NCBI GenBank assembly: GCA_001873365.1
Contig: MNYZ01000012.1
Span: 1 to 64,000 of the forward strand
Direction of reading: 5' to 3'
Length of the DNA stretch: 64,000 bases
From: Oscillatoriales cyanobacterium CG2_30_40_61
Lineage (GTDB): Bacteria; Cyanobacteriota; Cyanobacteriia; Cyanobacteriales; Microcoleaceae
This document shows, piece after piece, positions 8,908 through 38,466 of this stretch. Within the stretch, counting starts at the first letter, position 1. Each line of letters opens with the position of its first letter. The notes under the pieces are model-generated. The model was not told the DNA's origin. It saw nothing but the letters and a program-made list of their open reading frames with translations, and ran no database searches. Both the position numbers and the translations under genes were made by a program.

Positions 8908-10404
8908 GTGGCTCAACGATCTCCTCGTCAGTCGTTATTCTCAATCTTTTCCTTTAACAAGTCTGGCTCTAAGTCCTCTGAGCCAAAATCTCGCAATGGG
9001 AAAACGTCTCAACCGCAACCGAGACGTCGATCTCGTCGTTCTCCGACTGATCCGGTAAAAACGGCTCCTCGTCGCTCGCCATCCCCAGAACTACGACAGA
9101 ATAATGATTTGGGTCGTTCGGAGTCTTTTGATCCTTTGCTGTCTCAACTGCGACAAAAACCAGTTGCGCCTAAATCTCGTAAGCCCCGACCGACCCCAGG
9201 TAAACGCCCGCCCAATGGGGCTAATGGTGCTTCTGTTTTGCCCTTTCGTAAGCCGGCTGATCCGGCTCCCCGTCGCAGACCGGAGGGGGTTATGGTTCCG
9301 GCTCCTACTCCTGCTCTTACCCCTAGGAATAAATCAGTAAAACGGGTGAGAAAAAAACGTCGGGTATCTCCGATGGTTTATGCCACCCGATTACTAATTT
9401 TAGGGATAGGAATTGGTGTGATTTCGGGAACAATTCTTTCGGCTTTAAATGCCTTGGGTCGTTCTAGTATTGCTGCTGATCAAACCGTAAATTTAAGCCT
9501 GGAACAACAACAAAATTCTACTTCTTCTAATGCTTTAGTTTCATCCCTAAAATTAACTCAAGAAGCCTCGGATTTAAAAACAGCAATTCTGGGTTTAGCA
9601 AAGGATTCACCTAAGTTAAAACCCGGGGTATTTTTAGTGGATTTAGATACGGGAAACTATGTAGATGTTCAAGGGCAAGAAGCAGTTCCGGCTGCTAGTA
9701 CCATTAAAGTTCCGATTTTAGTCTCATTCTTCCAAGCAGTAGATGAAGGTAGGGTGCGTTTAGATGAAGTCCTAACTATGGAAGAAAAACACATTGCTAA
9801 GGGTTCTGGAGAACTACAAGATAAACCAGTTGGGAGTAAATTTACAGCCTTAGAAACGGCTAATTTAATGATTACAAATAGTGATAATACTGCCACTAAT
9901 ATGTTAATTGATCGGTTGGGTGGGATTGAATCCTTGAATCAACAGTTTGCTTCCTGGCAATTAAAACAAACTCAAATGCACAATCTTCTTCCTGATTTGG
10001 AAGGAACAAATAAAACCAGTGCCAAGGATTTAGTGAATTTGATGGCGGACATTAATCAAGGCAAGTTAGTTTCTTTGAAATCCCGCGATTTTATGTTAAG
10101 AATTATGCAGGAAACTCGCAATCGTTCTTTGTTACCTAGTGGTTTAGGAGAGGGGGCATTTATTGCTCATAAAACGGGAAATATTGACTCGGTTTGTGGG
10201 GATATTGGTTTAATTGATATGCCTAATGGTAAACGCTATTTAGTTGGGGTTTTAGTACAACGAGAAGCGGATGATCCCCAAGCTAATGAACTAATTCGTC
10301 AAATTTCTTCTACTATTTATCAATATTTTGATACTGCTACCGACCCTGAACCCAATCCCGATTCGCAAACTATTCCCGCTCCGGTTCAAGACGATAAACC
10401 CTAA
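8908..10404 (+). CDS. Membrane-anchored beta-lactamase-like serine hydrolase
   Basis: The product (498 residues from the GTG at 8908) has a long Arg/Pro/Ser-rich cytoplasmic N-terminus (about 1-155), one membrane segment (about 160-185, LLILGIGIGVISGTIL) and an extracytoplasmic class A beta-lactamase-type domain. All three serine-enzyme motifs are present: SxxK (Ser264-Thr-Ile-Lys267), SDN (325-327) and KTG near 421-423. The family includes beta-lactamases and penicillin-binding-like hydrolases, so it probably acts on peptidoglycan or a beta-lactam in the periplasm; which one cannot be decided. An in-frame ATG at 8821 overlaps trmJ and passes through the palindrome, so the GTG is preferred. 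Confidence 0.8.
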   Translation: MAQRSPRQSLFSIFSFNKSGSKSSEPKSRNGKTSQPQPRRRSRRSPTDPVKTAPRRSPSPELRQNNDLGRSESFDPLLSQLRQKPVAPKSRKPRPTPGKRPPNGANGASVLPFRKPADPAPRRRPEGVMVPAPTPALTPRNKSVKRVRKKRRVSPMVYATRLLILGIGIGVISGTILSALNALGRSSIAADQTVNLSLEQQQNSTSSNALVSSLKLTQEASDLKTAILGLAKDSPKLKPGVFLVDLDTGNYVDVQGQEAVPAASTIKVPILVSFFQAVDEGRVRLDEVLTMEEKHIAKGSGELQDKPVGSKFTALETANLMITNSDNTATNMLIDRLGGIESLNQQFASWQLKQTQMHNLLPDLEGTNKTSAKDLVNLMADINQGKLVSLKSRDFMLRIMQETRNRSLLPSGLGEGAFIAHKTGNIDSVCGDIGLIDMPNGKRYLVGVLVQREADDPQANELIRQISSTIYQYFDTATDPEPNPDSQTIPAPVQDDKP

Positions 10405-10734: not shown

Positions 10735-12189
10735 TTATTGAACATCCACATAAATATCTTTTTCGTATTGCTTAAATTCGTCATCAATATTATATAGTAA
10801 ATTGCGAATTTGTTGGCGAAGTTCTCGGGCGGGTTCTAAACAATCCCGTTGATAATCCTGTAAGGTTAATTCTAAATGAGGATAAAGTAATTTTAAAAAT
10901 CCTGATGCTGTTTTGAGAATTGCTTGTTGATCTCGGATCATGATATTATCACCAAATTGAGTATGTTGTTGAGCATATTGGTTAAAGCGATTATCTTTTC
11001 TTAAAGATAATAATACTTCTCCAAAAAAATCCATTTTTAACCCGATTTGATTAGCGATCATATCGCTTTGAAATTTAGGAATTTCCCACCCGGGTAAAAT
11101 CCCAGCAAAACGATCTAAAAGTGCTGTTTCTGAGAAGAATTTGGGCAAATTTTCTATTAAATTATATTCATTTTTAGGACGGAGATATTCATTTAATTCA
11201 ATATTTCCTAATAATACTAAAGAACAATCACTAGCAATATCAGCAAATCCCGAACGATTATAACGTCCATTAGCCAGGTAGGTTTTTAAAGGCCCAATTA
11301 TCTGATCAGGATTATCAAAACTTAAACTTTGAACTTCATCTAAAACCACGACATCATAACGCCCTAATAAGCCTACTTCTTTGGTTCTTCCATTAATAAA
11401 TAATTGAGAAGGGGTGACTTTTCCTCCACTAATCACAGAAACTTTATTATTAATATTTTCATAAACAAAACTTTTTCCCGTTCCTTTTGGTGCTAGTTCA
11501 ATTAAATGATAATTAGATTCTACTAAAGGTAATAAACGAGTTAAAATCCAGGTTTTTGCTCGATGATCATAGCTGGGATGTTCGGGGTTAAAACCCATGG
11601 AACAAAACATTAAATCTCGCCATTGTTCTGTGGTAAAGTTTGAGCGACATTCAGCATAAGTAGTAAGGTTAACTTCAGAACATTGGAAGGGGTCAAAATC
11701 AATCACAGATACTTTAAATTTATCATCCGTAGTATTTTTATATCTTAAAGTAATTTTACCCCATACTCCCTGTCTCAATAACATTTGATAACGTTCTACG
11801 ATATCAGTAGAAATTTCACAATCGGATAAATTTAAAACGGGAATATTAGCTAAAGGTTCAGGAATTTGTTTAGCGTTTGGTTCCAATTTTATTCTCACTT
11901 GAAGTAAAGCAATTAATTTATGTATTTCTCCTTGGGTTAGTTTGAATTTAATTACTTCTTGATCATCCTTTCGGGGAAAAGCCTTTTTGACAAAAGTATT
12001 AATTTTTTCTAGTTCTGAATCATTTAAAGTACCAGTTCCAGGGACAATTTTATCCAATAACCATTCAGCGACAAAACTAGGAATACCTAAAGTAGTTAAT
12101 TTACTGGCGGGTAAACGTTTTTTATCTATACTTAAGGTAGTAAAAACTTGAGTTACTAACTCATTGTTATAGTTATTATAAAAAGTCAT
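10735..12189 (-). CDS. brxL: BrxL-like AAA+ ATPase (short form, no Lon domain visible)
   Basis: The 484-residue product has a P-loop LIELAPKGTGKSFVYE (Walker A, about 233-240), a Walker B DVVVLDEVQ (about 279-287), SGGKVTPSQLFIN between them and a sensor-type LLGNIELNEYL. This is the pattern of the BREX Lon-like ATPase BrxL. Long BrxL proteins are nearer 680 residues and carry a C-terminal Lon-protease-like domain; this one ends soon after the ATPase core, so it fits the shorter BrxL family. It is the last gene of the operon and overlaps pglZ by 14 bases. BrxL is thought to act as a DNA-associated AAA+ motor in phage restriction; that role is inferred here from the family. Confidence 0.8.
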   Translation of the reverse strand: MTFYNNYNNELVTQVFTTLSIDKKRLPASKLTTLGIPSFVAEWLLDKIVPGTGTLNDSELEKINTFVKKAFPRKDDQEVIKFKLTQGEIHKLIALLQVRIKLEPNAKQIPEPLANIPVLNLSDCEISTDIVERYQMLLRQGVWGKITLRYKNTTDDKFKVSVIDFDPFQCSEVNLTTYAECRSNFTTEQWRDLMFCSMGFNPEHPSYDHRAKTWILTRLLPLVESNYHLIELAPKGTGKSFVYENINNKVSVISGGKVTPSQLFINGRTKEVGLLGRYDVVVLDEVQSLSFDNPDQIIGPLKTYLANGRYNRSGFADIASDCSLVLLGNIELNEYLRPKNEYNLIENLPKFFSETALLDRFAGILPGWEIPKFQSDMIANQIGLKMDFFGEVLLSLRKDNRFNQYAQQHTQFGDNIMIRDQQAILKTASGFLKLLYPHLELTLQDYQRDCLEPARELRQQIRNLLYNIDDEFKQYEKDIYVDVQ

Positions 12190-14395
12190 CTAAACCTCCT
12201 TGAATACCGCTACTAAAAATTTGTTTAATAGTCATTAATGAATCCGAATCAAGATTTGATTCACCGGAATCACTATTAGCAAAAACAAAAGTTAATTTAC
12301 CTGATAATTGAATCGTTATTTCATTTTTATCGAGTGCTAACTCTGGATATTCACGAATAGATATTTTATGGGTAACTTGATCATTGGGTTTAATGGTGAT
12401 ATCTAACATTTTTCCTGTTTTGAAATCATTTAATTGATCGATAGATAAACAAAGATTAGTTAAGGATACTGGATTATAATTATTAATCGTAATCGTTAAT
12501 TCTCCTGGTTGTTTTGCTTTCCCCTCTCCGCGACAATTTACTATCACTGGATAACGTTGTAAGGATTGGCTTAAAACTGAAAATCCAACAACAACTTCTT
12601 CGGGAAATAAGCCACCATGAGAACCAATAATTTCCTTGTCTTTTGTAGAATTAAATGCACTAATACAGTCGGAATTTCTGACAATACTAATATCGTGAGG
12701 AAGCCCAAAACGTCTAGGGTCAAGAACAACAAAACGAGAATCATTAGTTTTCCCAATCGCCATTCTACCTTTTGATTCTAATTCTTCTGGACAATCAGAT
12801 AATTTTTGAACCTCTCCCATAATTTGACCATGATCACTAGAGATAACAACTTTTACCTTTTCAAAATTAGAACAGTTATCTAAAAAATGTTGAATATTTT
12901 TAGCAATTCCTTGTAAACGACTGATTCTTTCTACTTGATATAAAGTTTTCCAATCTTTTTCTTGATGATAAAGTTCATCTAATTGATCTGTATCCCAACA
13001 ATAAATCCGATATTTATTCTCTTTTAAATCTTGGATTAATTCATATTTATTCTGATCGGTATAACGTTTTCCTGATTTTACCATAGAAAAACCTGATTTT
13101 GCGTTAGGTTTCCAAGATGGATGTTGTGGTAAAAGTTGAGAATAAAGACTCCATTTTGCATATTCAGTTTTGGTAGGAAGGATACTAAAGTAAGGGGTAA
13201 TATCTGTTTCCAGTGATATGTGATTATTTTGGGTCAAAATTGCAATTAATTCTTGATGATCTAACCATCCCAAACCATCAACAACTACCCAAATCACAAT
13301 ATTTTCCTGGGCTAATTTTTGCAGTTGATAAGTCCCATTATAATTTAAAAATGACTGATCAACATTATCTATTTTTAATTCTGGGTAATTTTTGATTATC
13401 CAGTTAACAAAATTATCTGCTAATTGCTGACTAATTTGTTTGTCTTTGGGAGTATAATTAATTGTTGTTTCCCAAAGTCTAAATGGTAAATAAGATTCTG
13501 TTACCCATTCTAAAGCATCTTGAGGACTCCCATCAATAGATAGGGGTAAAGGTTGAATAGGAGGTAATTTTTGCTGTAGTTGGGATGTTTTTTGACCCCC
13601 TAAATAAAAACTAATTTTATTAATTCTTTCGGGAGTTATCCAGGTGGGTTGATCCAATAAACTATTATAGGCGATGGAAGCTATTATATGATTACCAGTT
13701 TGTTTATGTAATATTAACTCATCTAAAATCCTAGCTTCTGTTTGATAAATTTTTTGTCGCCAAAAATCACTAAATTCTTGATAACAAACATCAGGAATAT
13801 TTAAAGGGTATTGACCCAATATATTAATAATCTCAAAATCCGAACCTAAACCTAACCAATTTATTAAAACTTGATGCTTATTTTTGCTTTGATAATAACT
13901 GATTAAATTATCATTTTCATGGTTATGACTAATTTTATATTTCCAAACATTTTCAAGTATTTGATAGTCTTCGAGAACTTCAATACCTAACCATTCTGCT
14001 AAATGTTTTACCGATAGATTATCAGTTAACCAAAAATTTTCCTCCGTATTGGTTAGATCAGCTAAGAAAGATTCAATGGGATGATTGGAAGCATAACTAT
14101 CAAGCTGATTAATCATGTTTAAAATATGTTGATTATCCCAATTATTAGGGATAGGGAAAGGTGCAAAAATAGCTTCTACTTTTGGGCGAGGGTGTTGTTT
14201 TATCTCAATAATTAAATCGGATTTATTCCATACTCTTAACCATTCTTTTGTCCAATCACAGAGTCTTTTTCCTTTAATCCAATAAGCGGAAGATTCAAGA
14301 GTAAAATATTGCAACCATTCGACTTCGTTAGTAATAACAATATAGTCAGTAATTGGTTGATATAATCCCGTAGGATCTAAGATAATTTTACTCAT
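12176..14395 (-). CDS. pglZ: PglZ-domain protein (BREX core)
   Basis: The 739-residue product has the alkaline-phosphatase-fold PglZ domain: WVVVDGLGW at about 369-377 supplies the first metal-binding Asp, and KVVISSDHGQIMGE near 525 supplies the SDHG metal-binding motif. The N-terminal half resembles BREX PglZ in length and helical character, and a beta-rich C-terminal domain follows. PglZ is the hallmark of BREX and related phage-defence loci; its biochemical activity is not fully settled. It overlaps the upstream ATPase gene by 8 bases and brxL by 14, so translation is probably coupled. Confidence 0.88.
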   Translation of the reverse strand: MSKIILDPTGLYQPITDYIVITNEVEWLQYFTLESSAYWIKGKRLCDWTKEWLRVWNKSDLIIEIKQHPRPKVEAIFAPFPIPNNWDNQHILNMINQLDSYASNHPIESFLADLTNTEENFWLTDNLSVKHLAEWLGIEVLEDYQILENVWKYKISHNHENDNLISYYQSKNKHQVLINWLGLGSDFEIINILGQYPLNIPDVCYQEFSDFWRQKIYQTEARILDELILHKQTGNHIIASIAYNSLLDQPTWITPERINKISFYLGGQKTSQLQQKLPPIQPLPLSIDGSPQDALEWVTESYLPFRLWETTINYTPKDKQISQQLADNFVNWIIKNYPELKIDNVDQSFLNYNGTYQLQKLAQENIVIWVVVDGLGWLDHQELIAILTQNNHISLETDITPYFSILPTKTEYAKWSLYSQLLPQHPSWKPNAKSGFSMVKSGKRYTDQNKYELIQDLKENKYRIYCWDTDQLDELYHQEKDWKTLYQVERISRLQGIAKNIQHFLDNCSNFEKVKVVISSDHGQIMGEVQKLSDCPEELESKGRMAIGKTNDSRFVVLDPRRFGLPHDISIVRNSDCISAFNSTKDKEIIGSHGGLFPEEVVVGFSVLSQSLQRYPVIVNCRGEGKAKQPGELTITINNYNPVSLTNLCLSIDQLNDFKTGKMLDITIKPNDQVTHKISIREYPELALDKNEITIQLSGKLTFVFANSDSGESNLDSDSLMTIKQIFSSGIQGGLDDFL

Positions 14396-17300
14396 TAATT
14401 TTTTCCCCTTTAGATAAATATTCTCCTAATTGAGCATATAAAATTTGTTGTCTTTCAGGAAGAAGTTGTGTAAATAAAGCAATAATTTGTTCCTCTTTAC
14501 TTTTATTTTGTCGATCTATAGATTGAGTTTTAATCACTTCTAATAACTGTTGATAATCTTGGTAATTATCAGAATCTTTAAAAATTAAGTCTAATTTCGC
14601 TAAATCAGTTTGAAGCTGACTTAAATGTTGATCTGTATCTACTTTAGAAATTTGCTCTTTTAAGTGTTCAAATTGTTGTTGAAAATCAAAAACTTGATTG
14701 TTAAGAGCATTAATCAATTGTTCTATTTCCGTATTAAATCTTTCAGGATAGTTAAGCTGAGAGCGTAAGTTATTTATTTGTTTAATTCCTTGTTGACATA
14801 AGATCATAGTATTTAGGAATTTAGGATTATTTTGGCGTAACTGTTGCATAATATCAGTATCTTGTTGTTGTTTTATTTTGTCAAATTCTTCTAAATTTTC
14901 AATTTCTAAAATAATTGGCTCTAATTCATCTAATATTTTTTTAACTTTTTGAGCAGATTCAATTTGAGTAAAACGATTTTTTTGCTGACTAACTTCTTGA
15001 GACAGTTTAAGAGCTTGATTTTTAGTTATACCTGTTAATCTTTCCGACCAAATTTTAAGAGTTGTTTCTAAATCAGTTTGTTTATTTTCAATATCTTGAA
15101 TGATTGTTTGATACTGAGATTCTTGTTTAACAACTTCAAGATTATTAGTTAAGCTTTCAATTTCACTCAAGGCTTTAATATAATCCTCTTGACTCCCATT
15201 GATACTCAGAGAATCATAACGAAGTTTTATTTTTTCCAAACAGTCTTTGATTTCAGTTTGATGTTTAATTTCATCTAGTTTTCTTTTAGCAACAACATTC
15301 AGAGAATAATTTAAGGTTTTAATTAAATGTTCAGGTAACGAAACTTGAGTGATTTTTTCAATTGCTGTTTCAAGTTCTCCTTGATAGCGTCCATATTCTT
15401 GTTGTGTTTTTAGAGATTCTGATTTTTCACTTAATTGTATAACCATTTCTTCAATTTTATCTTGAACTTTTTGTAAAGCATCAGCTTGACGTTGTTTTTG
15501 TTGAGAAGTACGATTAACAACAATACTATCTGTATCTGATTTAGAGGGTGACGCGAGATTAATATTGTGGGGTTGTTGTTGAAGACTAGGATAAAGTTTT
15601 AGTAAGGTTTCAAGGTTGACATCATCGGGTAAGTTTTCGGTTTCTTCTACGGGTTGAAACCAATCATTAATTTTTTTGATTTCAGCTAAAATTTGTTTTC
15701 TTTTCGGTGTAATTTCCTGTACTTTTGCTTGATCAGGATCAGCAGAATTGATAAATTGATCAATCTCTTTAATCAGTTTTTCTGCTTGATGATAATCAAT
15801 TGTTACTGGTATTTCAGGACAAGCAACAGTCTGACTCCGAATTAATCGAGGTGTATTTCCAGGGGCTAAAATCCATTTATTAACAAAATCTTTGGGTTTA
15901 TCAAATACATTAGTTGTCGCCCAATCTTTTATTGATTTTTCTTGAATTGATACCTGCTCTTTACTGTTTTTAGGAATCCCAAAACTTCCGTATAAAATAA
16001 CTTCACCACGATGATAAGCTATCCATCCCGCAAATAGCATCGTAAATGTATATTCATTATAGCCAAAGGGAGGTTTAGATAACTCTTGCCAAATTTTATT
16101 AATATTAATAGATGTGCGTTTTGTGTCTCCTAAAGCCGTTAATTTAGCTATTCTATCCCATGCTTCTCTAACATTTTTATTGGTAGGAATTTGGACTGAA
16201 TATTTTTGAGAAGTAGTTGTAAATAATCCCCAACTATTCACAAATACTTGGTTAACTAAAGTATTATAGGATTGATTGGGAAATTTAGTAGGATTAAGCT
16301 CGTTTTCTAGTAATCGTTTAGCTGTATAACTAATTATAGTATTTCCAGTAGAACTGTTTAGAGCCATTTTATCATTTTTTGCCAGGGGAGGGACAAAAGG
16401 ATAAAGTTGTTTTAAAAGATGACTAACTATACCCTCTGGATTTTGTTTTTGAACATTAGTAAGTTGATCTAATTCAAGACAATAATAGGTCGAAGAACCA
16501 ATTATTGCTTTAACTTCCCTTTTAATTGTTTCTTGAAGTCGTTTTTTATATTGTTCATAAGCTATTCCTAATTCTTGTTTTTCACTTCTTCTTTTTCTGG
16601 TAATGATATCTATTTTTAACAGGTCTTTACAAATATTTCTAATCGGTTTATCGGGAATAGCAACAGCAATCTGTTTTTTATGTTTTGATTGGGAAAGCAA
16701 ATCATTAATTTGATGGCGAAGGTTTTGTAATTCTTCAAGAGTTTCTGCTAAAACGTAAGCAAAAATTCCTTTTCCTTCTAAGTTTTCTACCGCTTGATGA
16801 CTATTTAATAATCGTTTAAAATCAGGAATGTTATAGAATTTATATTCAAAAAACCATTCATCATTCAGTAATTGATTTTTGTTAATAAAATCTGTTCCTT
16901 CAATCTTTTGAAATTGAAAATAAGTTTTAACTTCTTCTTGACAATGCTTAATCGCTAAATTTACCGAGATCTCATTAAGTTTTTTACTAACTTCTTCTTC
17001 TATTTCTTGAGTAATTTCTAGTAAATTGCTACCGGAATAAAAACGATAAGTATTATCTCCAGTATTAGAATAAATGACTTGTTTTTTCTGAGATAATATA
17101 TCTAATGTTTCTTTAGTTTCTTTTTCCGATAAACCTGTTAATTCACTAAGAATGACATCATGTTTTTCTGATTCGGATTTATTCAGTTTATTTTGACTCA
17201 CATAAAATAAGAAAAGTCCTTTTAAAACCGCATTTTCAGCTTCTGTAGTTGAGGAGGAAATAGTATCATAGGCTTTTTGATATTCTGAATAATAGCGAGA

Positions 17301-18716
17301 AAATTCTAGTTGAGCAAAGTTACTTTCAAAAGCATCTACTAAGGAAATAGCCGGAATATAGTTTAATTTGCCATTCTTTTCGACTGGTTCAGAATTAATA
17401 AATTGTTTAACATCCTCTTTAATATATTGAATTGCTGTACGTCCTTGGGTAAAATCTAAGTTACAAAGTAGATAACTATTCAGGGGATGAAGGGGAAAAC
17501 AACCGAGGGTTAAATTGGTATGAAAATCTTGTAATTTCCAGCCCCTTTCGCGATAAATATTAATTCTGCTTTCATGGGCTTTTCTACTATCTCCCAAAAG
17601 AGTATTATCCCATATTTGACAAAATTGCTTCCATACATTAGGATTAACTTGTTGATCTAATAATCCTTTAATTACTAATTCCAAGTTTGAAATTGGTTCA
17701 TAAGTGCTTTCAGCAATTTCTAAGCGAGATGCTAATTTGTTGTAGTCTTCTACTGATTGATTTGGGGCTGATTTTAAAGGGCGAATTTGGGTAAAACAAA
17801 CTAAGGCAATTCTGCTTTTATAATTCTCACAAATATTTGTAATACTTTGTAAACACGCGCCCCCCGCTTTGACTGAATCTGTCGCCCAAGATTTAAGATA
17901 ATAATTAAGTTCATCAAATAAAATCAAAATTCCCGAATATTTTGCATTTGCTCCAGAGCATAATTTATTAATTAATTCTTCTAAAATTTTTTCAATACTT
18001 AAATCTGTCTCAAAATCAATAGGAAATCCATTGTTTAGCTCACAGCTAATTGATTTTACTGTAGAAACAACTCGATAGTTTTCTTGCTCTAATGAATCAA
18101 TTATACTATCTAAATCTCCGAACTGATGATCGTTATTTGCTAAATATTGATTAGCTATTTGTTTTTGAAGGTCGGTTAGTTGGGTTAAATATTCCAAGGG
18201 TTTTTGACATATTTGTTGTGCTAAAGAATCCGTAATTCCTTCTGTTTCTAAGGTTTGTCGCAGCGATCGCAAAAATATTTGTCTCAAGTCTAAGCCATCA
18301 TCTCCACTAATACAAATTACTAAATGTTTAGGATTACGTCTTTTATAGGTTGTTAAATCTTCTACAATTCCTTGATTATGTTCTGAGGCGATTTTGATTT
18401 GCTCTAATATTCCTTCAACTTCGGGACTATCTAATAATTGTTTAAAATAGTTGGCTGTAACTAAGGCAAAATGAGATTTTCCCTTACCATAATCTTGCAC
18501 AAATAAATGGATATTAGCTTGATTAACACTCTGATAACTTTTCTGAATAGCATCAAGAACACCTAATGTTGAGGATTTAGGATTACCCTGATTGTAATTA
18601 AAAACAAATCCTTGACATAACTGTAAGTTTTTATCCGCATCAGCCATCATCCCAAAGTTAACGGCATTAGCTACAATTCCCGATTCATTGATTCTAACAA
18701 TTTGATGGAGTTGCAT
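14388..18716 (-). CDS. brxC: BrxC/PglY-like large P-loop ATPase
   Basis: The 1,442-residue product has an N-terminal ATPase region: P-loop-like LFVQDYGKGKSHFAL at about 71-85 and Walker B ILILFDELNYYL at about 263-274. The first Gly of the classical GxxxxGKS is Gln here (QDYGKGKS). The middle matches no motif I know. The C-terminal third (about 1110-1430) is rich in Gln, Glu, Lys and Leu with heptad spacing, typical of long coiled coils. Size, ATPase position and neighbours fit BrxC/PglY, the large ATPase of BREX systems. It is 60 bases downstream of the small 149-residue gene. Confidence 0.82.
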   Translation of the reverse strand: MQLHQIVRINESGIVANAVNFGMMADADKNLQLCQGFVFNYNQGNPKSSTLGVLDAIQKSYQSVNQANIHLFVQDYGKGKSHFALVTANYFKQLLDSPEVEGILEQIKIASEHNQGIVEDLTTYKRRNPKHLVICISGDDGLDLRQIFLRSLRQTLETEGITDSLAQQICQKPLEYLTQLTDLQKQIANQYLANNDHQFGDLDSIIDSLEQENYRVVSTVKSISCELNNGFPIDFETDLSIEKILEELINKLCSGANAKYSGILILFDELNYYLKSWATDSVKAGGACLQSITNICENYKSRIALVCFTQIRPLKSAPNQSVEDYNKLASRLEIAESTYEPISNLELVIKGLLDQQVNPNVWKQFCQIWDNTLLGDSRKAHESRINIYRERGWKLQDFHTNLTLGCFPLHPLNSYLLCNLDFTQGRTAIQYIKEDVKQFINSEPVEKNGKLNYIPAISLVDAFESNFAQLEFSRYYSEYQKAYDTISSSTTEAENAVLKGLFLFYVSQNKLNKSESEKHDVILSELTGLSEKETKETLDILSQKKQVIYSNTGDNTYRFYSGSNLLEITQEIEEEVSKKLNEISVNLAIKHCQEEVKTYFQFQKIEGTDFINKNQLLNDEWFFEYKFYNIPDFKRLLNSHQAVENLEGKGIFAYVLAETLEELQNLRHQINDLLSQSKHKKQIAVAIPDKPIRNICKDLLKIDIITRKRRSEKQELGIAYEQYKKRLQETIKREVKAIIGSSTYYCLELDQLTNVQKQNPEGIVSHLLKQLYPFVPPLAKNDKMALNSSTGNTIISYTAKRLLENELNPTKFPNQSYNTLVNQVFVNSWGLFTTTSQKYSVQIPTNKNVREAWDRIAKLTALGDTKRTSININKIWQELSKPPFGYNEYTFTMLFAGWIAYHRGEVILYGSFGIPKNSKEQVSIQEKSIKDWATTNVFDKPKDFVNKWILAPGNTPRLIRSQTVACPEIPVTIDYHQAEKLIKEIDQFINSADPDQAKVQEITPKRKQILAEIKKINDWFQPVEETENLPDDVNLETLLKLYPSLQQQPHNINLASPSKSDTDSIVVNRTSQQKQRQADALQKVQDKIEEMVIQLSEKSESLKTQQEYGRYQGELETAIEKITQVSLPEHLIKTLNYSLNVVAKRKLDEIKHQTEIKDCLEKIKLRYDSLSINGSQEDYIKALSEIESLTNNLEVVKQESQYQTIIQDIENKQTDLETTLKIWSERLTGITKNQALKLSQEVSQQKNRFTQIESAQKVKKILDELEPIILEIENLEEFDKIKQQQDTDIMQQLRQNNPKFLNTMILCQQGIKQINNLRSQLNYPERFNTEIEQLINALNNQVFDFQQQFEHLKEQISKVDTDQHLSQLQTDLAKLDLIFKDSDNYQDYQQLLEVIKTQSIDRQNKSKEEQIIALFTQLLPERQQILYAQLGEYLSKGEKINE

Positions 18717-18776
18717 GGTTTTAAAGTCCTGGTTATGGGTGTGTTTGGTTGTTGGGCTTTAGCCCTCCTATTTAAG

Positions 18777-19226
18777 TTAATTAGGGCCGTCACTAACAAC
18801 GGATTCAAGATGTCTTTTATTCCAATTTGGCGGACTAAGTTTAGAAGGTAGTAGAATCCAGAGAATAGATTGTAAATGTCTCATATATTCTAATTGTTTC
18901 CAAAATAAACTAATGGGAGAATCTGGTTGTGTGTAAAGATAGGTTATCAAGATATCAAGGTCTGTTAGTAATATAACAGGTTTTGTGGCATATTCACAAA
19001 TTTGTTTAATGGCTTCTAATTCTTGATCTAAATTTTCATGCAGCATTAAGAATTTTTGTTTCTTTTTAATCCGACCCAATAAATTATCACGATAACTGAT
19101 TTGTTGAGCATTATTGTTAAACAAAAGTTGATTTATTTCCAAATCATTAGGAGTATCCCATAATAACAAATGGGGTATATCGGTCGGTTTGGCATCTTTG
19201 AGATATAGATGATTAATGATTGACAT
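18777..19226 (-). CDS. Small unknown protein of the BREX-like operon
   Basis: The 149-residue product has no domain I can name with confidence. It shows a Walker-B-like strand KPVILLTDLDILITYLY (about 86-102) and a second hydrophobic strand SILWILLPSKLSPP (about 119-132), in an order that recalls the small BREX-3 protein BrxF, but no Walker A motif is visible. It overlaps the DUF4007 gene by 14 bases and is followed by the large ATPase gene, so it belongs to the operon. It may be a partner or adaptor of the ATPase; this is inference from position only. Confidence 0.7.
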   Translation of the reverse strand: MSIINHLYLKDAKPTDIPHLLLWDTPNDLEINQLLFNNNAQQISYRDNLLGRIKKKQKFLMLHENLDQELEAIKQICEYATKPVILLTDLDILITYLYTQPDSPISLFWKQLEYMRHLQSILWILLPSKLSPPNWNKRHLESVVSDGPN

Positions 19227-20043
19227 AAGCTTTCTCTAATAAAGTTAAAGGATTATCCCAGCGCCGGATAATTTGATAGGGTGCAACTGTTCGTCTTTGT
19301 TCAATAATTCCCAGAGATTCTATAGCATTAAGATGTTGTTGTAATGATTCGGGTTGAATCCCTAAAACGGGCAAAATCCCCATTTTTTGTTTGATAATCT
19401 CCTCGGTTAAAACTGAGGTTTCTTGACCAAAATCCCGTTGCCAAAGTTTGGCCAGTAAGTAACCAATTAAATAAGAATTAGGAAGATTAGGATTTCCTGA
19501 TTCATAATAATCTGATTTAATTTCCTTGATAAATTGACAATTGGCTAGGGCTTGTTGCTCCGTATAGGCTCTTAAAATATATTTCATTCTTTGAGAAATT
19601 ACTTGATCTGGTTCTTCAAAGATAGAAATACTATTTTTGTCTAAAGTATTTTTAGTAAAAGTTAGATTTTGAGGAAGAAAAGTATAAACAAAATAAGTCC
19701 AGCCTCCCCAATCAGCAGGATTTTCTGGTATTTTATTTAAACCTTGATTCCCAAAACTCAAGTAAAAGTGCATTAACCAATCAGTAATAATTGATTGTAA
19801 ATTAGGATCATGTTTTAAAACTATTTTTCCCTCGGGACTTAAATAATTGTCTTTAATTAAACCTGCTCTAACTGACCAAGTTTTAATTTTTCCTACTTTG
19901 GCATTTCCTAAACCCGTTTTTTCCATTAAGTTTTGTAAAGTATCTTTTAACCCTTCCGTTTCTGAAGCCGCATTTAGGATTCTTTTGATTTCTTCTTTTT
20001 TAAGGGAAAAATTACCGTTGAAATGTAGTTGTATTTTTGTCAT
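19213..20043 (-). CDS. DUF4007 family protein
   Basis: The 276-residue product matches the DUF4007 plan: an N-terminal LHFNGNFSLKKEEIKRIL, a helix-turn-helix-like segment (KVGKIKTWSVRAGLI), LSPEGKIVLKHDP and a C-terminal winged-helix-like part (LGIIEQRRTVAPYQIIRRW). DUF4007 genes are known to me as neighbours of PAPS-reductase/DndC-like genes in type 4 BREX and phosphorothioation loci. Here no PAPS reductase is present. It is the first gene of the five-gene operon. A DNA-recognition role is plausible from the winged-helix-like ends but is not shown. Confidence 0.72.
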   Translation of the reverse strand: MTKIQLHFNGNFSLKKEEIKRILNAASETEGLKDTLQNLMEKTGLGNAKVGKIKTWSVRAGLIKDNYLSPEGKIVLKHDPNLQSIITDWLMHFYLSFGNQGLNKIPENPADWGGWTYFVYTFLPQNLTFTKNTLDKNSISIFEEPDQVISQRMKYILRAYTEQQALANCQFIKEIKSDYYESGNPNLPNSYLIGYLLAKLWQRDFGQETSVLTEEIIKQKMGILPVLGIQPESLQQHLNAIESLGIIEQRRTVAPYQIIRRWDNPLTLLEKAYVNH

Positions 20044-20103: not shown

Positions 20104-20685
20104 TTATCGTAACTTTTGTGTTAAATTCCAGCAGCCATTTCGATGCTCAAAAATATAAGCCCCTGGTTCTCCATAGGTGTAATCTAGGTATTCTTCTCCA
20201 CCCCGATTAGAATTATAGGCATACTGAGCTTTGATATAGTTAACTCGAAAGGTATTATTATTAATGCGAATTAAATCAATTTGCAAGCGGGTATAAGGAC
20301 TATTATCTACAGCAGAAGGGACAAGTTGAACCCAACGGTAATCTCTAAGATCAATACTAAATTCATCATCTTTTTTATTCAACATTTCTATAAGATTACT
20401 GGGATTTTCATACTCCCGAACTTCGATGGTATCTGCGGTATAAGTTAAGCGGGTTTCTTTTCCTTGATAATCTTGACCGCGCACAAAATTCTCAAAAAAT
20501 GATTTGTATTTATCGGGTGCACAATACTCTGGTAAACTTGGGGTTACAGTCCTTATTTGAGGTTGAGTTTGAGCGTAAGCGGGCTGTAAGAGATTAGGGG
20601 TGATCAGGGGTTTGATAGAGGTTGCTAAAATAGTAATAATTATCACTTTTGTTGCTATTGAAATTTTATTAGATTTGATAGACAT
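20104..20685 (-). CDS. Secreted protein of unknown function
   Basis: The 193-residue product has a signal peptide: basic N-terminus, a hydrophobic core (VIIITILATSIKPLI) and a cleavage site after AYA, before QTQPQIRT. The mature part is about 155 residues, mainly beta-type, with two Cys (in EYCAPDK and RNGCWNLT) that could form a disulphide. I recognise no family. It lies 60 bases upstream of the DUF4007 gene on the same strand, so it could share its transcript, but an exported protein is not an expected BREX component. Confidence 0.75.
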   Translation of the reverse strand: MSIKSNKISIATKVIIITILATSIKPLITPNLLQPAYAQTQPQIRTVTPSLPEYCAPDKYKSFFENFVRGQDYQGKETRLTYTADTIEVREYENPSNLIEMLNKKDDEFSIDLRDYRWVQLVPSAVDNSPYTRLQIDLIRINNNTFRVNYIKAQYAYNSNRGGEEYLDYTYGEPGAYIFEHRNGCWNLTQKLR

Positions 20686-20752
20686 GGCAGGATCAATAAA
20701 ATAGGAATGTGTTTGAGATCAGGAGTTATAAAAAATCGAATTGAATAGGATT

Positions 20753-21277
20753 TCAAAGCCCACAGGTAGATACAAAAAGCCTCTCTCTAATGATTGACCA
20801 CTCTTTGGCTTCAGAAGTCCCAGGACTAAGTTTTTTTCCAATTAGTTGAGGATAGCGATTATAAAAAATTATATCTGCTAAATAATCATAGGGGTTAGAA
20901 TAGGAGTTAGGCATACCTTGAAAATTGAAGTCCCAAAGATCTTCAGGTTCCTGTTCTGCACCGTGACAAACTTCCCGAGTAGGTCTGATCATGGGTGCAA
21001 TAACGGCGCGTAAATTCTCCCATTCTCGAATATATTCTCGATCTCTGCTGGTTAGTTTCCGACCCTGTAATTCAGGATTCACTTGATAGAAGAAATGGTC
21101 GGTATACTGATCAATTAATTGGCTAGGAGCTTGGCTAGAAACTTGGGTTAACTCAGTATTAATATGATGGGGGATTGCATTTGCTGTTGTGGTATAAGTC
21201 AAAAATACAGTCCCCGAGAGGAGAAAGAATGCAGAAAATTTTGAAAGAGTCAGCATAGAAATATCGGTTAGGATCAT
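20753..21277 (-). CDS. Secreted protein of unknown function
   Basis: From the ATG at 21277 the product is 174 residues with a signal peptide ending at TTTANA before IPHHINTE. The mature protein contains two similar segments, one around FFYQVNPELQGRKLTSRDREYIREW and a second around IFYNRYPQLIGKKLSPGTSEAKEW, so it seems to be an internally duplicated domain. I do not recognise the family. A TTG at 21313 and an ATG at 21259 are alternative starts. It is 67 bases upstream of the other secreted-protein gene and on the same strand. Confidence 0.7.
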   Translation of the reverse strand: MILTDISMLTLSKFSAFFLLSGTVFLTYTTTANAIPHHINTELTQVSSQAPSQLIDQYTDHFFYQVNPELQGRKLTSRDREYIREWENLRAVIAPMIRPTREVCHGAEQEPEDLWDFNFQGMPNSYSNPYDYLADIIFYNRYPQLIGKKLSPGTSEAKEWSIIRERLFVSTCGL

Positions 21278-21356
21278 AATGTTAATCACACCTTTTCTAA
21301 TTACCTTTCCCAATCACTACAACAATCAGATGAGAAAATCCGTGAGAGAGCGAACG

Positions 21357-35871: not shown

Positions 35872-37611
35872 TTAACTGATAACTGATAAAACTTGCCGTA
35901 ACTGTTCCGTTGTCTGGGTTTGGTTTTGGGAAATTTCGAGCAACTGATTTAATTCAGTTGTGGTTTGTTCTAACTGTTGGCGAACTTGATTCCAAGAATC
36001 TTGAACCGGTTGTAACATTTCCTGATATAAACTGATCCGGCCCCAAAGTTCGGCTACCATTCGTTGCTGTTCGATCCAAGATTGTTCGGTCGTTTCTAAC
36101 TGTTGGCGGGTTTGTTCGGTGGTGCTGGTGCGACTATTAAGATCGGTTTGCCGTTGTTCAAAGCTAGAACTCAATTGTTGAAGTTCGGTTTCTAAGGTTT
36201 GGAGTTGTTGTTTTTGTTCCTGTTGTTGGGTTTCCAAAGTGGCAATCACCAATTTTAAATCAACAGCCCCTCCATGGTTTACGGGGGTTATCCCTTGGCG
36301 ACGGAGTAAAACCGCCTGATATTGGGTTTTATGTTCCTCCCGTTCTTTGAGGGTACGCCGCTGACCAACTAAGGTTTCATTCAGCATTTGATAGGCGTCT
36401 TGTTCATCGGTTAATTCGGTTTGTAAATCTTCCCGTTCAGAATCACTAACGGTTTTGAGTTTTTCCTGAATTTTCCCAATATCTTCGAGCTTGTATTTGA
36501 GTTCCTCCTCCTGTTCTCCCACCATCCGAAACCAGCGATCCCACTCCTTTTCCAGTTGTTTGACTTCGGTTTGTAATTGTTCCAAGGACATCGCTTCTAA
36601 GGCTTGGACATCTACCTTGACACTAACAGCAACCGGATCACTTTCAGATTGACGGGAGGCTAAATCCTGTAACTGTTCTAATAGGGTTTGACGGTTTTGG
36701 ATCAGGGTTTTTAAGGTTTGGGCATAGTCCTGTTTAGTTTGAAGTAACTGTTGTTCACAGGCTAACTCCGCCCGGTTTTGGATTAAGGTATCCTGGGCCT
36801 GTTGCCATTGCTGCCATTGCTGTTCAATCTCTGTGGTCTTAGTATCTACGGTTTGTTGAAGTTGTTCCGCTTCTAAACGTTGTGACCGTAACCGTTGGCG
36901 ATGTTGTTCTAGCCCATTCAGAGCAATGGCTACCTGTTCCCGGGACTGATCAAGTTGTGTTTGTAGGGGTGAGATCGAAATCGGGTTAGATAGTTGATTC
37001 AGTAAATTACCGAGGAGTTCTGACTGTTCCTTATTTAAGGAAGGAGACGACTGCAAGGCGGCTTGTTGTTCTTCAAGCTGTTGTCGTTGCTGTTGTAATG
37101 CGGCCCTAGTGGTTTGAATATCTTGACGGGCTTGATCAATTTCAGAACGCAGACGGTTACTTTCATCCTTAGAGCGATCAATTTCTTGACGCTGCTGTTC
37201 TAGTCGCTCTAATTCTCCCTCCAGTTGTTCCATTTGTTCCCGTCGGGCTTCCATTTCCATTTCCCGACGATTTAATTCCTGACTTTGGTAAGTCAAGGAC
37301 TCTTTCCACTGTTCAATTTCTTCCTGTTGGGTTTTGAATTTTTCTTGCAACCGAGAAAAATCTTGGAGAATTCCCACCAGTTGGCGTGCAGCTTCTTGAA
37401 TGCGCTGTACCTGTTTACCCGTATTCAGATCGACTAAAACTAAAGTTCCATCCTTGAAATTATTTGCATCTTCAGCCAGGACGACCTCATCCCCGGATAC
37501 AGCACTCCAATTGTTTTCACCTCGCTGACAAGCCAATAGCTTCAGTTCTGTCCTCCCGCCACCCAGACCAAATTTGTTACTCTGCTTTTGTACTTCCGCT
37601 AAATAGAGCAT
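35872..37611 (-). CDS. hmpF: Pilus motility taxis protein HmpF
   Basis: The 579-residue product has the conserved N-terminal block MLYLAEVQKQSNKF, ELKLLACQRGENNWSAVSGD, GTLVLVDLNTGKQVQRIQEA and SLTYQSQELNRREMEMEARR, followed by long coiled coils to the C-terminus (rich in Gln, Glu, Leu in heptads). This matches HmpF, which in filamentous cyanobacteria localises with type IV pili at cell junctions and is needed for gliding motility. The last residues, LSVIS, and the stop are encoded by the flanking heptamer repeat. It stands alone, away from other pilus genes. Confidence 0.82.
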   Translation of the reverse strand: MLYLAEVQKQSNKFGLGGGRTELKLLACQRGENNWSAVSGDEVVLAEDANNFKDGTLVLVDLNTGKQVQRIQEAARQLVGILQDFSRLQEKFKTQQEEIEQWKESLTYQSQELNRREMEMEARREQMEQLEGELERLEQQRQEIDRSKDESNRLRSEIDQARQDIQTTRAALQQQRQQLEEQQAALQSSPSLNKEQSELLGNLLNQLSNPISISPLQTQLDQSREQVAIALNGLEQHRQRLRSQRLEAEQLQQTVDTKTTEIEQQWQQWQQAQDTLIQNRAELACEQQLLQTKQDYAQTLKTLIQNRQTLLEQLQDLASRQSESDPVAVSVKVDVQALEAMSLEQLQTEVKQLEKEWDRWFRMVGEQEEELKYKLEDIGKIQEKLKTVSDSEREDLQTELTDEQDAYQMLNETLVGQRRTLKEREEHKTQYQAVLLRRQGITPVNHGGAVDLKLVIATLETQQQEQKQQLQTLETELQQLSSSFEQRQTDLNSRTSTTEQTRQQLETTEQSWIEQQRMVAELWGRISLYQEMLQPVQDSWNQVRQQLEQTTTELNQLLEISQNQTQTTEQLRQVLSVIS

Positions 37612-37710
37612 CGGCCCTTTATCCTCTTGAGGTGTTCAAGCATGATTTTGATTTACCTGTCCTAATCATAAAACCTTCTGGGAGTAGCAGTTAACAGTTT
37701 ATATTTTGTC

Positions 37711-38466
37711 CTATTCTACAGGCTCAATTCCAGCAGCGCGCAGTTGGGCTACTAATCTCTCGGCCCGTTGATATTCCTGCTCGGCCCGTTGCCGTTCCTG
37801 CTCGGCCCGTTGCCGTTCCTGTTCAACCTTTTCTGTACCCCACCATAGCAAATTACCCTGTTCATCCCACCAGCGCAACCAATGGCCCTGACGGTTTTCC
37901 CGAGTTCCTTGCCAGGCTCCTAGAAAAAGCTGCATTTCCGGTATCCAAAACCAGCCCTGCTCATTGGCCGATTCCAGTTTATACCGTTGGGTATCACCAA
38001 AACGATATAATTCTAAGCTCCCTGAGTTGGGTTCAAAAATTCCGTAATTGGGAACTTGCAAAATCTGTTCATAGAAAAAGAATTTTCCGGGGGGATAGGT
38101 TTCTTTAACTGAATATTCTCCGCCATCGGTATCGGATAAAAACTCTAATACCAAAGCCGGAATTTCCCCCTGGAGTTGCGGGGTATAACTGCGAACCACT
38201 TCCCCTCGACTCACGGAAATCTGGGGAATATAGGCCCAGTCGGGGGCTTTAACAGCCATTTTGCCATTGATAGTCGCACAAATACCGTAGTTCGTCGGTG
38301 TGAGGGCTGTTTCTGGTAGTTTTCCGGCCAGTTGCAAACTTTCGGTTAAGGCGGCGGCGAGGGCGGGTTGATTGATATTATCCACAGGGTCATCGGGTAG
38401 CACAAAATCATCTGGCAACTTTTCCCAAGTAATTGTGTAGGTGGGGGAGGTGGCTAACATGATCAT
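37711..38466 (-). CDS. Uma2-family (DUF820) putative endonuclease
   Basis: The 251-residue product has the Uma2 PD-(D/E)XK-like core: ALVLEFLSDTDGGEYSVKE and the C-terminal beta part around FGDTQRYKLES. It ends with a Glu/Arg/Gln-rich tail in repeated EQERQRA units and a terminal AQLRAAGIEP, as common in cyanobacterial members. Uma2 proteins are found in large numbers in cyanobacteria; their cell role is unclear. Start ATG at 38466 (second Met at 38460). Confidence 0.8.
   Translation of the reverse strand: MIMLATSPTYTITWEKLPDDFVLPDDPVDNINQPALAAALTESLQLAGKLPETALTPTNYGICATINGKMAVKAPDWAYIPQISVSRGEVVRSYTPQLQGEIPALVLEFLSDTDGGEYSVKETYPPGKFFFYEQILQVPNYGIFEPNSGSLELYRFGDTQRYKLESANEQGWFWIPEMQLFLGAWQGTRENRQGHWLRWWDEQGNLLWWGTEKVEQERQRAEQERQRAEQEYQRAERLVAQLRAAGIEPVE

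Follow-up and report, generated by a model that had tools for sequence, protein, structure and literature searches.

The window, a stretch of 64,000 nucleotides, belongs to contig C91 in a cyanobacterial assembly of 119 contigs and 4.8 Mb that is 99% complete. It carries at 10735-20043 five open reading frames (ORFs) on the minus strand; three of their four junctions are overlaps (14, 8 and 14 bases) and the fourth is a gap of 60 bases. Their spacing and order, as given in a preliminary description of this DNA, are confirmed by the ORF list, and the family and profile searches that it had proposed bear out four of its identities (DUF4007, P-loop ATPase, PglZ and a short BrxL). In order of transcription the genes are:

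19213..20043, minus strand: SspB-family (DUF4007) protein, 276 aa, the first gene transcribed
18777..19226, minus strand: 149-aa protein without an assigned family, the second gene
14388..18716, minus strand: SspC/BrxC-type P-loop ATPase, 1442 aa
12176..14395, minus strand: PglZ with intact active-site residues, 739 aa
10735..12189, minus strand: short BrxL with N-terminal and AAA+ domains, 484 aa

The product of the first gene matches Pfam DUF4007 (32.6 bits; cut-off 27) and the PADLOC SspB model (3e-9), and profile-profile comparison, in which unrelated pairs of profiles score 0.1-0.7% probability, gives 98.8% (E 1.4e-16) with SspB and no similarity to BrxA (0.4%). When its predicted model (mean pLDDT 66) is compared with the PDB, the sole match under E 0.001 is the SspB crystal structure 6lb9 (1.6e-4), with a poor superposition (TM 0.27). 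The 149-aa protein is conserved in 15 relatives at 46-89% identity and has no family match in PADLOC, Pfam and TIGR searches; PDB profile searches with its alignment and with that of the DUF4007 protein gave no match. Its gene occupies the position held by BrxB in BREX type 1. An assignment as BrxB is supported neither by the profiles, which detect no similarity between the two proteins (0.2%), nor by Pfam, the predicted structure (pLDDT 39.7) being unusable. The single-sequence match of the ATPase is weak (BrxC in PADLOC, E 0.005), and its assignment as SspC/BrxC comes from profile comparison, with 99.8% (E 1.8e-27) for SspC and 97.4% (E 1.3e-11) for type-1 BrxC; a PDB profile search returned coiled-coil matches only. 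Its Walker A (YGKGKS) and Walker B (FDE) motifs are kept in all 12 aligned relatives, including Thermomicrobium and Abditibacteriota, and only the x of YGxGKS varies. PglZ matches PADLOC PDLC02549 (5e-23) and falls slightly below the 25-bit cut-off of Pfam PglZ (24.4 bits), while its profile finds type-1 PglZ (97.4%, E 1.5e-11) and, in the PDB, the PorX phosphatase domain (E 7.7e-7); all 10 aligned sequences retain residues D373, T408, D521-H522 and H593. BrxL is recognised by TIGR02688 (1e-140) and Pfam BrxL_ATPase (1.5e-110), and residues 34-469 align with the PDB BrxL 8emc (8e-67), a chain of 679 residues.

Neither PglX nor BrxP lies beside the operon, as had been stated at the outset and as the ORFs of the window confirm, and the window has no sspD match. 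Nor does a second copy of the locus carry one of them elsewhere in the genome: PglZ is single copy, a protein search with the window's DUF4007 protein returns the window copy only, and no PglX exceeds its cut-off (best match 123.5 bits versus 500). A DUF4007 family search of the genome was uninformative, missing the window's own copy and matching no control. The PAPS-reductase family PF01507 has two members in the genome, a CysH-type protein on contig C38 and DndC on contig C107 (TIGR03183, 1e-208); a PAPS reductase of the BrxP/SspD type was found by this search neither at the locus nor elsewhere. One explanation for this gene content is that some other base modification marks self, for example through a type I methyltransferase of the same genome that replaced SspD. 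Type I-like adenine methyltransferases do occur among the weak PglX-profile matches just mentioned, but none of them reaches the PglX cut-off and no such enzyme adjoins the module, whether in the window or in the examined relatives, and we regard this explanation as very improbable.

The only phosphorothioate (PT) writer found in the genome is the dndB-C-D-E cluster on contig C107, which encodes, in addition to DndC, DndD (665 codons in a single open frame), DndE, two DndB-like proteins and an HNH protein. The last of these adjoins dndC and scores 130 bits with a PT-DNA restriction model, under the cut-off of 180. The dndE and dndD genes are adjacent and form the very junction that the module takes in dnd-linked relatives. 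DndH (DptH) was matched by TIGR03237 in none of 26 genomes, and in none of the 14 control genomes either.

The nearest named relative is Planktothrix paucivesiculata PCC 9631 (locus L050, genome G399), with 85-94% identity across the five proteins. The ATPase matched 11 of the 386 genomes of a phylum sample, 7 of them strongly and the genome studied here included; a contig scan with an alignment of four PglZ sequences yielded 24 loci, all in records named as cyanobacteria; tblastn of a plasmid set gave 4 records; and an order-wide search matched 28 of 388 genomes, some of the matches being weak or fragmentary. With 14 further neighbourhoods added, 39 loci were classified for a tree of four concatenated proteins: 15 stand-alone (the window included), 10 dnd-linked, 9 with Ssp genes, 2 with a broken or missing sspD and 3 cut by contig ends, after degraded or fragmentary module matches (G516, G002, G408, G334 and G116) and a weak one (G566) had been dropped and the short contigs L039 and L057 left out. 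A genome reached by two routes was counted once when identical coordinates or contigs indicated its identity, and L058, a 4.3-kb contig without upstream sequence, counts as stand-alone since no sspD was found in its genome. The gene-order survey proposed in the preliminary description has thus found the same module beside Ssp genes, in or beside a dnd cluster, and alone. On the tree, whose backbone is only partly resolved and whose Thermomicrobium outgroup branch is long, the presence of sspD beside the module needs at least 5 changes. Long PglZ ORFs of about 1490-1590 aa with an N-terminal extension were seen at L040:7718-12181, L043:5310-10091, L044:7445-12214 and L049:7619-12175.

In the Ssp-linked form, the plasmid locus of Thermomicrobium roseum reads DUF4007, ATPase, PAPS reductase, DUF4007, an unknown protein, ATPase, PglZ, BrxL and cysteine desulfurase. 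This order recurs in Pseudanabaena and, whole or in part, in cyanobacterial loci, and SspE is additionally present in the loci of G207 and G534. The writer-side ATPase of T. roseum matches PADLOC PDLC02478 (BrxC) end to end with 2632 bits, and its PglZ matches PDLC02549 with 1742 bits; the module ATPase has no PADLOC match. Judging from these end-to-end matches, the T. roseum locus is probably the source of both models, and its gene content suggests that it is an example of BREX type 4. L034 (G187) and L035 (G056) are Ssp-type loci in which BrxL accompanies SspB, SspC, SspD, an HNH_4 protein and a DndB-like protein, and in which no PglZ was recognised in the fetched stretch. The loci of G187, G056 and G119 were rejected as canonical type 4 with a 787-aa PglZ: the 787-aa protein is DndB-like, a 383-aa protein is HNH_4 and the ATPase is SspC.

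The window groups with PCC 9631 (100/100) and then with eight Nostocales-type loci (96/99); Spirulina CCY15215 (L046) and an Annamia plasmid (L060) branch off next, and the sister to all of these, G535 (L114), has an intact writer. The sspD of Spirulina CCY15215 is truncated, with only residues 64-266 left, and PF01507 does not detect it in the genome. The Annamia plasmid retains the HNH gene and part of the cysteine desulfurase; its fetched stretch holds no sspD, a 22-residue match (E 0.007) being too weak to count, and the best 40 of the 82 plasmid records that match SspD do not include this plasmid. A 194-aa ORF occurs on it twice (L060:4185-4769 and 8980-9564), the copies sharing their first 25 residues; they lie amid the pieces of a broken ATPase gene and are probably a mobile element. 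Elsewhere on the tree, two stand-alone loci from Calothrix are sister to G675, which has the writer. In 10 of the 15 stand-alone genomes PF01507 detected no sspD-type protein; PCC 9631 carries an Ssp locus at another site, and the remaining four (G439, G515, G681 and G455) were examined only in the fetched stretch around the module. That second PT system of PCC 9631 (L094, contig C128 of G399) comprises SspB, SspC, SspD, an 1800-aa FtsK-domain protein and a cysteine desulfurase.

The preliminary description had left the choice between a new arrangement that works without modification and a type-4 relative that has lost its modification gene or carries it elsewhere. Because relatives carry the module beside SspB, SspC, SspD and a cysteine desulfurase, and because the branch of the window is nested among them, with a truncated or missing sspD nearby, the evidence favours the second alternative, the first being retained as a rival. 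The gene history, in which the module lost its Ssp writer, is well supported.

The dnd-linked form comprises 10 loci of one Nostocales-type clade (support 97/97; Fischerella, Nostoc and Chrysosporum among them) with the module in or beside a dnd cluster. In 9 of these 10 loci dndE adjoins the module, in 8 the module is flanked by dndE and by dndD, and dndC falls inside the fetched stretch in 8; it lies about 100 kb from the module in G352, which has an Ssp locus elsewhere in its genome, and about 130 kb in L042. The module is transcribed against dndD and dndE. This placement is one acquisition kept through the clade, not repeated evidence. A literature search on BREX and Dnd, mostly without subscription papers, returned no paper that describes a BREX module within a dnd cluster. 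In two Nostoc loci of this form, deletions have produced a fusion between the first part of PglZ and the last part of BrxL (L045:9989-12766 and L047:5785-7695).

DndC exceeds its cut-off in all 15 stand-alone genomes, all 10 dnd-linked ones and 4 of the 7 with sspD beside the module. The comparison of 25 of 25 genomes without sspD beside the module versus 4 of 7 with it gives a Fisher p of 0.007, uncorrected for kinship and with the cut loci L043, L109 and L115 and the plasmid records L060-L063 excluded (the own plasmid of L062 has no DndC match); L046, whose sspD is broken and whose genome does have DndC, also stands outside it. On the tree, a pairwise test has only 3 independent pairs and no power. 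Moreover, DndC is present in 93 of 105 genomes of this order within the phylum sample versus 1 of 281 outside the order, and in 313 of the 388 genomes of the order sample; with DndC near-universal in the order, a count of 15 of 15 carries little weight as evidence, and co-occurrence was rejected as proof of Dnd use. Possible exceptions to the pattern are G392, whose module is cut at a contig end and in which neither DndC nor sspD was found, and G516, which has a degraded module, no DndC, and no sspD on its 14-kb contig.

Another possibility is that the module is modification-independent, with PglZ, the ATPase and BrxL recognising a phage structure or replication state and needing no self mark. 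Such a module would fit the lack of a cis writer in 15 loci while all window genes are under purifying selection. The ancestral and the dnd-linked forms, however, are both tied to PT writers, and no intact module occurs in a genome shown to be without both SspD and DndC, those of G392, G505 and G516 being cut or degraded; we consider this explanation unlikely.

In comparison with L050, omega is 0.12 for BrxL, 0.32 for PglZ, 0.29 for the ATPase and 0.23 and 0.24 for the other two genes; all five window genes are under purifying selection. Damage is nonetheless frequent among the relatives, affecting 7 of the 15 stand-alone and at least 4 of the 10 dnd-linked copies. In the stand-alone set the PglZ active site is gone in six and BrxL is broken in one: five share a PglZ without the catalytic domain, PglZ is short in G455, and the broken BrxL is that of G245. 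The PglZ of the five, which are related genomes, is about 200-220 aa long and keeps an N-terminal stretch and the C-terminal domain in frame. Its positions are:

L053:10001-10651: shortened PglZ
L054:10001-10660: shortened PglZ
L055:1601-2248: shortened PglZ
L056:10001-10657: shortened PglZ
L058:1593-2198: shortened PglZ

This damage would be explained if the module were a remnant that has been unused since the loss of SspD and is decaying, as would the omega of 0.51 between the shortened PglZ of L053 and that of L054. Against it, the five ORFs of the window are intact, their catalytic motifs are kept and their omega values lie within 0.12-0.32, and the remnant explanation is given a low probability.

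The A/T richness of the stretch had been taken to suggest transfer, and the G+C content of the module is indeed 31% versus 40% in the flanks. That suggestion is not supported, and low G+C was rejected as a sign of recent transfer: the same housekeeping genes flank the module in PCC 9631, and against L050 its dS (0.21-0.26) differs little from the 0.26-0.31 of three housekeeping genes in the flanks. For the small ORF at 20104, another gene of the flanks, dS is 0.55. Two small ORFs at 20104-21313 are on opposite sides of the module in the window and in L050, a local rearrangement, and at 36001-38000 the window has a strong AT skew (-0.244) across a minus-strand ORF of 579 aa.

We propose, with moderate confidence, that the module is the effector half, of BREX type-4 lineage, of a PT-linked phage defence that lost its Ssp writer, and that self is most likely marked in trans by the Dnd writer on contig C107. 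The ancestor would have carried an Ssp-type PT writer (SspB, SspC, SspD and cysteine desulfurase) beside the module. The SspB-like protein and the SspC/BrxC-like ATPase may load on DNA and sample its PT state; missing marks would license PglZ, as a metal-dependent nuclease or phosphatase, and the AAA+ motor BrxL, which together would block replication of the incoming DNA. By analogy with BrxB in type 1, the 149-aa protein probably bridges PglZ and the ATPase. The module probably reads Dnd marks, and if it reads PT it should be harmful without a PT writer. We extend this proposal, somewhat more tentatively, to a Dnd-BREX hybrid in which, for PglZ, the BrxC-like ATPase and BrxL, the double-strand Dnd mark took the place of the single-strand Ssp mark (in cis in the Nostocales-type clade, in trans in Planktothrix and others), the effectors being interchangeable readers of PT writers.

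The proposal of an effector half served by Dnd is supported by the retention of the module as a unit in three settings (Ssp-linked, dnd-linked and alone), the decay of sspD near the branch of the window, the dnd cluster in the same genome, the intact motifs and the purifying selection. Several observations count against it. The damaged copies are as expected of a module losing its use, the genome's Dnd may already have a reader in the HNH protein beside dndC, and the 149-aa protein has no sequence link to BrxB. One reader for both marks is also not a given, because Ssp marks one strand and Dnd both, according to the accessible text of PMC12707154.

If the module does read Dnd marks, Dnd writers would have a further reader and BREX effectors would be movable between PT writers. 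BREX type 4 would then be separable into a half that marks and a half that attacks, and what BREX effectors sense would become testable, for which cyanobacteria give a natural series with the writer in cis, broken, replaced or gone.

Among known systems, BREX type 1 (BrxA-BrxB-BrxC-PglX-PglZ-BrxL) shares with the module the order ATPase, PglZ, BrxL after two small genes, whereas the module lacks PglX, its BrxL is short and no profile similarity to BrxA or BrxB is present. Dnd systems have DndFGH, DndI or PbeABCD as partners; the module sits in the dnd cluster in the Nostocales-type clade, and in the searches run none of its proteins is homologous to DndF, DndG, DndH, DndI or Pbe. An identification with PbeABCD was dropped, since PbeA is a helicase-HKD protein and PbeC a CxC ABC ATPase according to the available parts of PMC10853773 and PMC6459918. 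The DUF4007 protein and ATPase are relatives of SspB and SspC of the Ssp systems (SspABCD with SspE or SspFGH), and the module adjoins SspBCD in relatives and, in G207, SspE too; it differs from these systems in having no SspD and in having PglZ and BrxL as effectors instead of SspE or SspFGH. With BREX type 4 (BrxP-BrxC-PglZ-BrxL) it shares DUF4007, the SspC/BrxC-type ATPase, PglZ with its catalytic residues and BrxL, while the PAPS reductase (BrxP/SspD) was found neither in the module nor in the rest of the genome, and DUF4007, often fused to the PAPS reductase in type 4, is a separate gene. As reported in the part of PMC12839542 available, type-4 taxa have the PAPS reductase in 406 of 457 and DUF4007 in 442 of 457, so that loci without PAPS reductase are counted there; that part does not link them to Dnd. 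The nearest annotated example is the plasmid locus of T. roseum, in which the PADLOC BrxC model corresponds to the writer-side SspC and not to the module ATPase, and which contains the identical five-gene block in the identical order.
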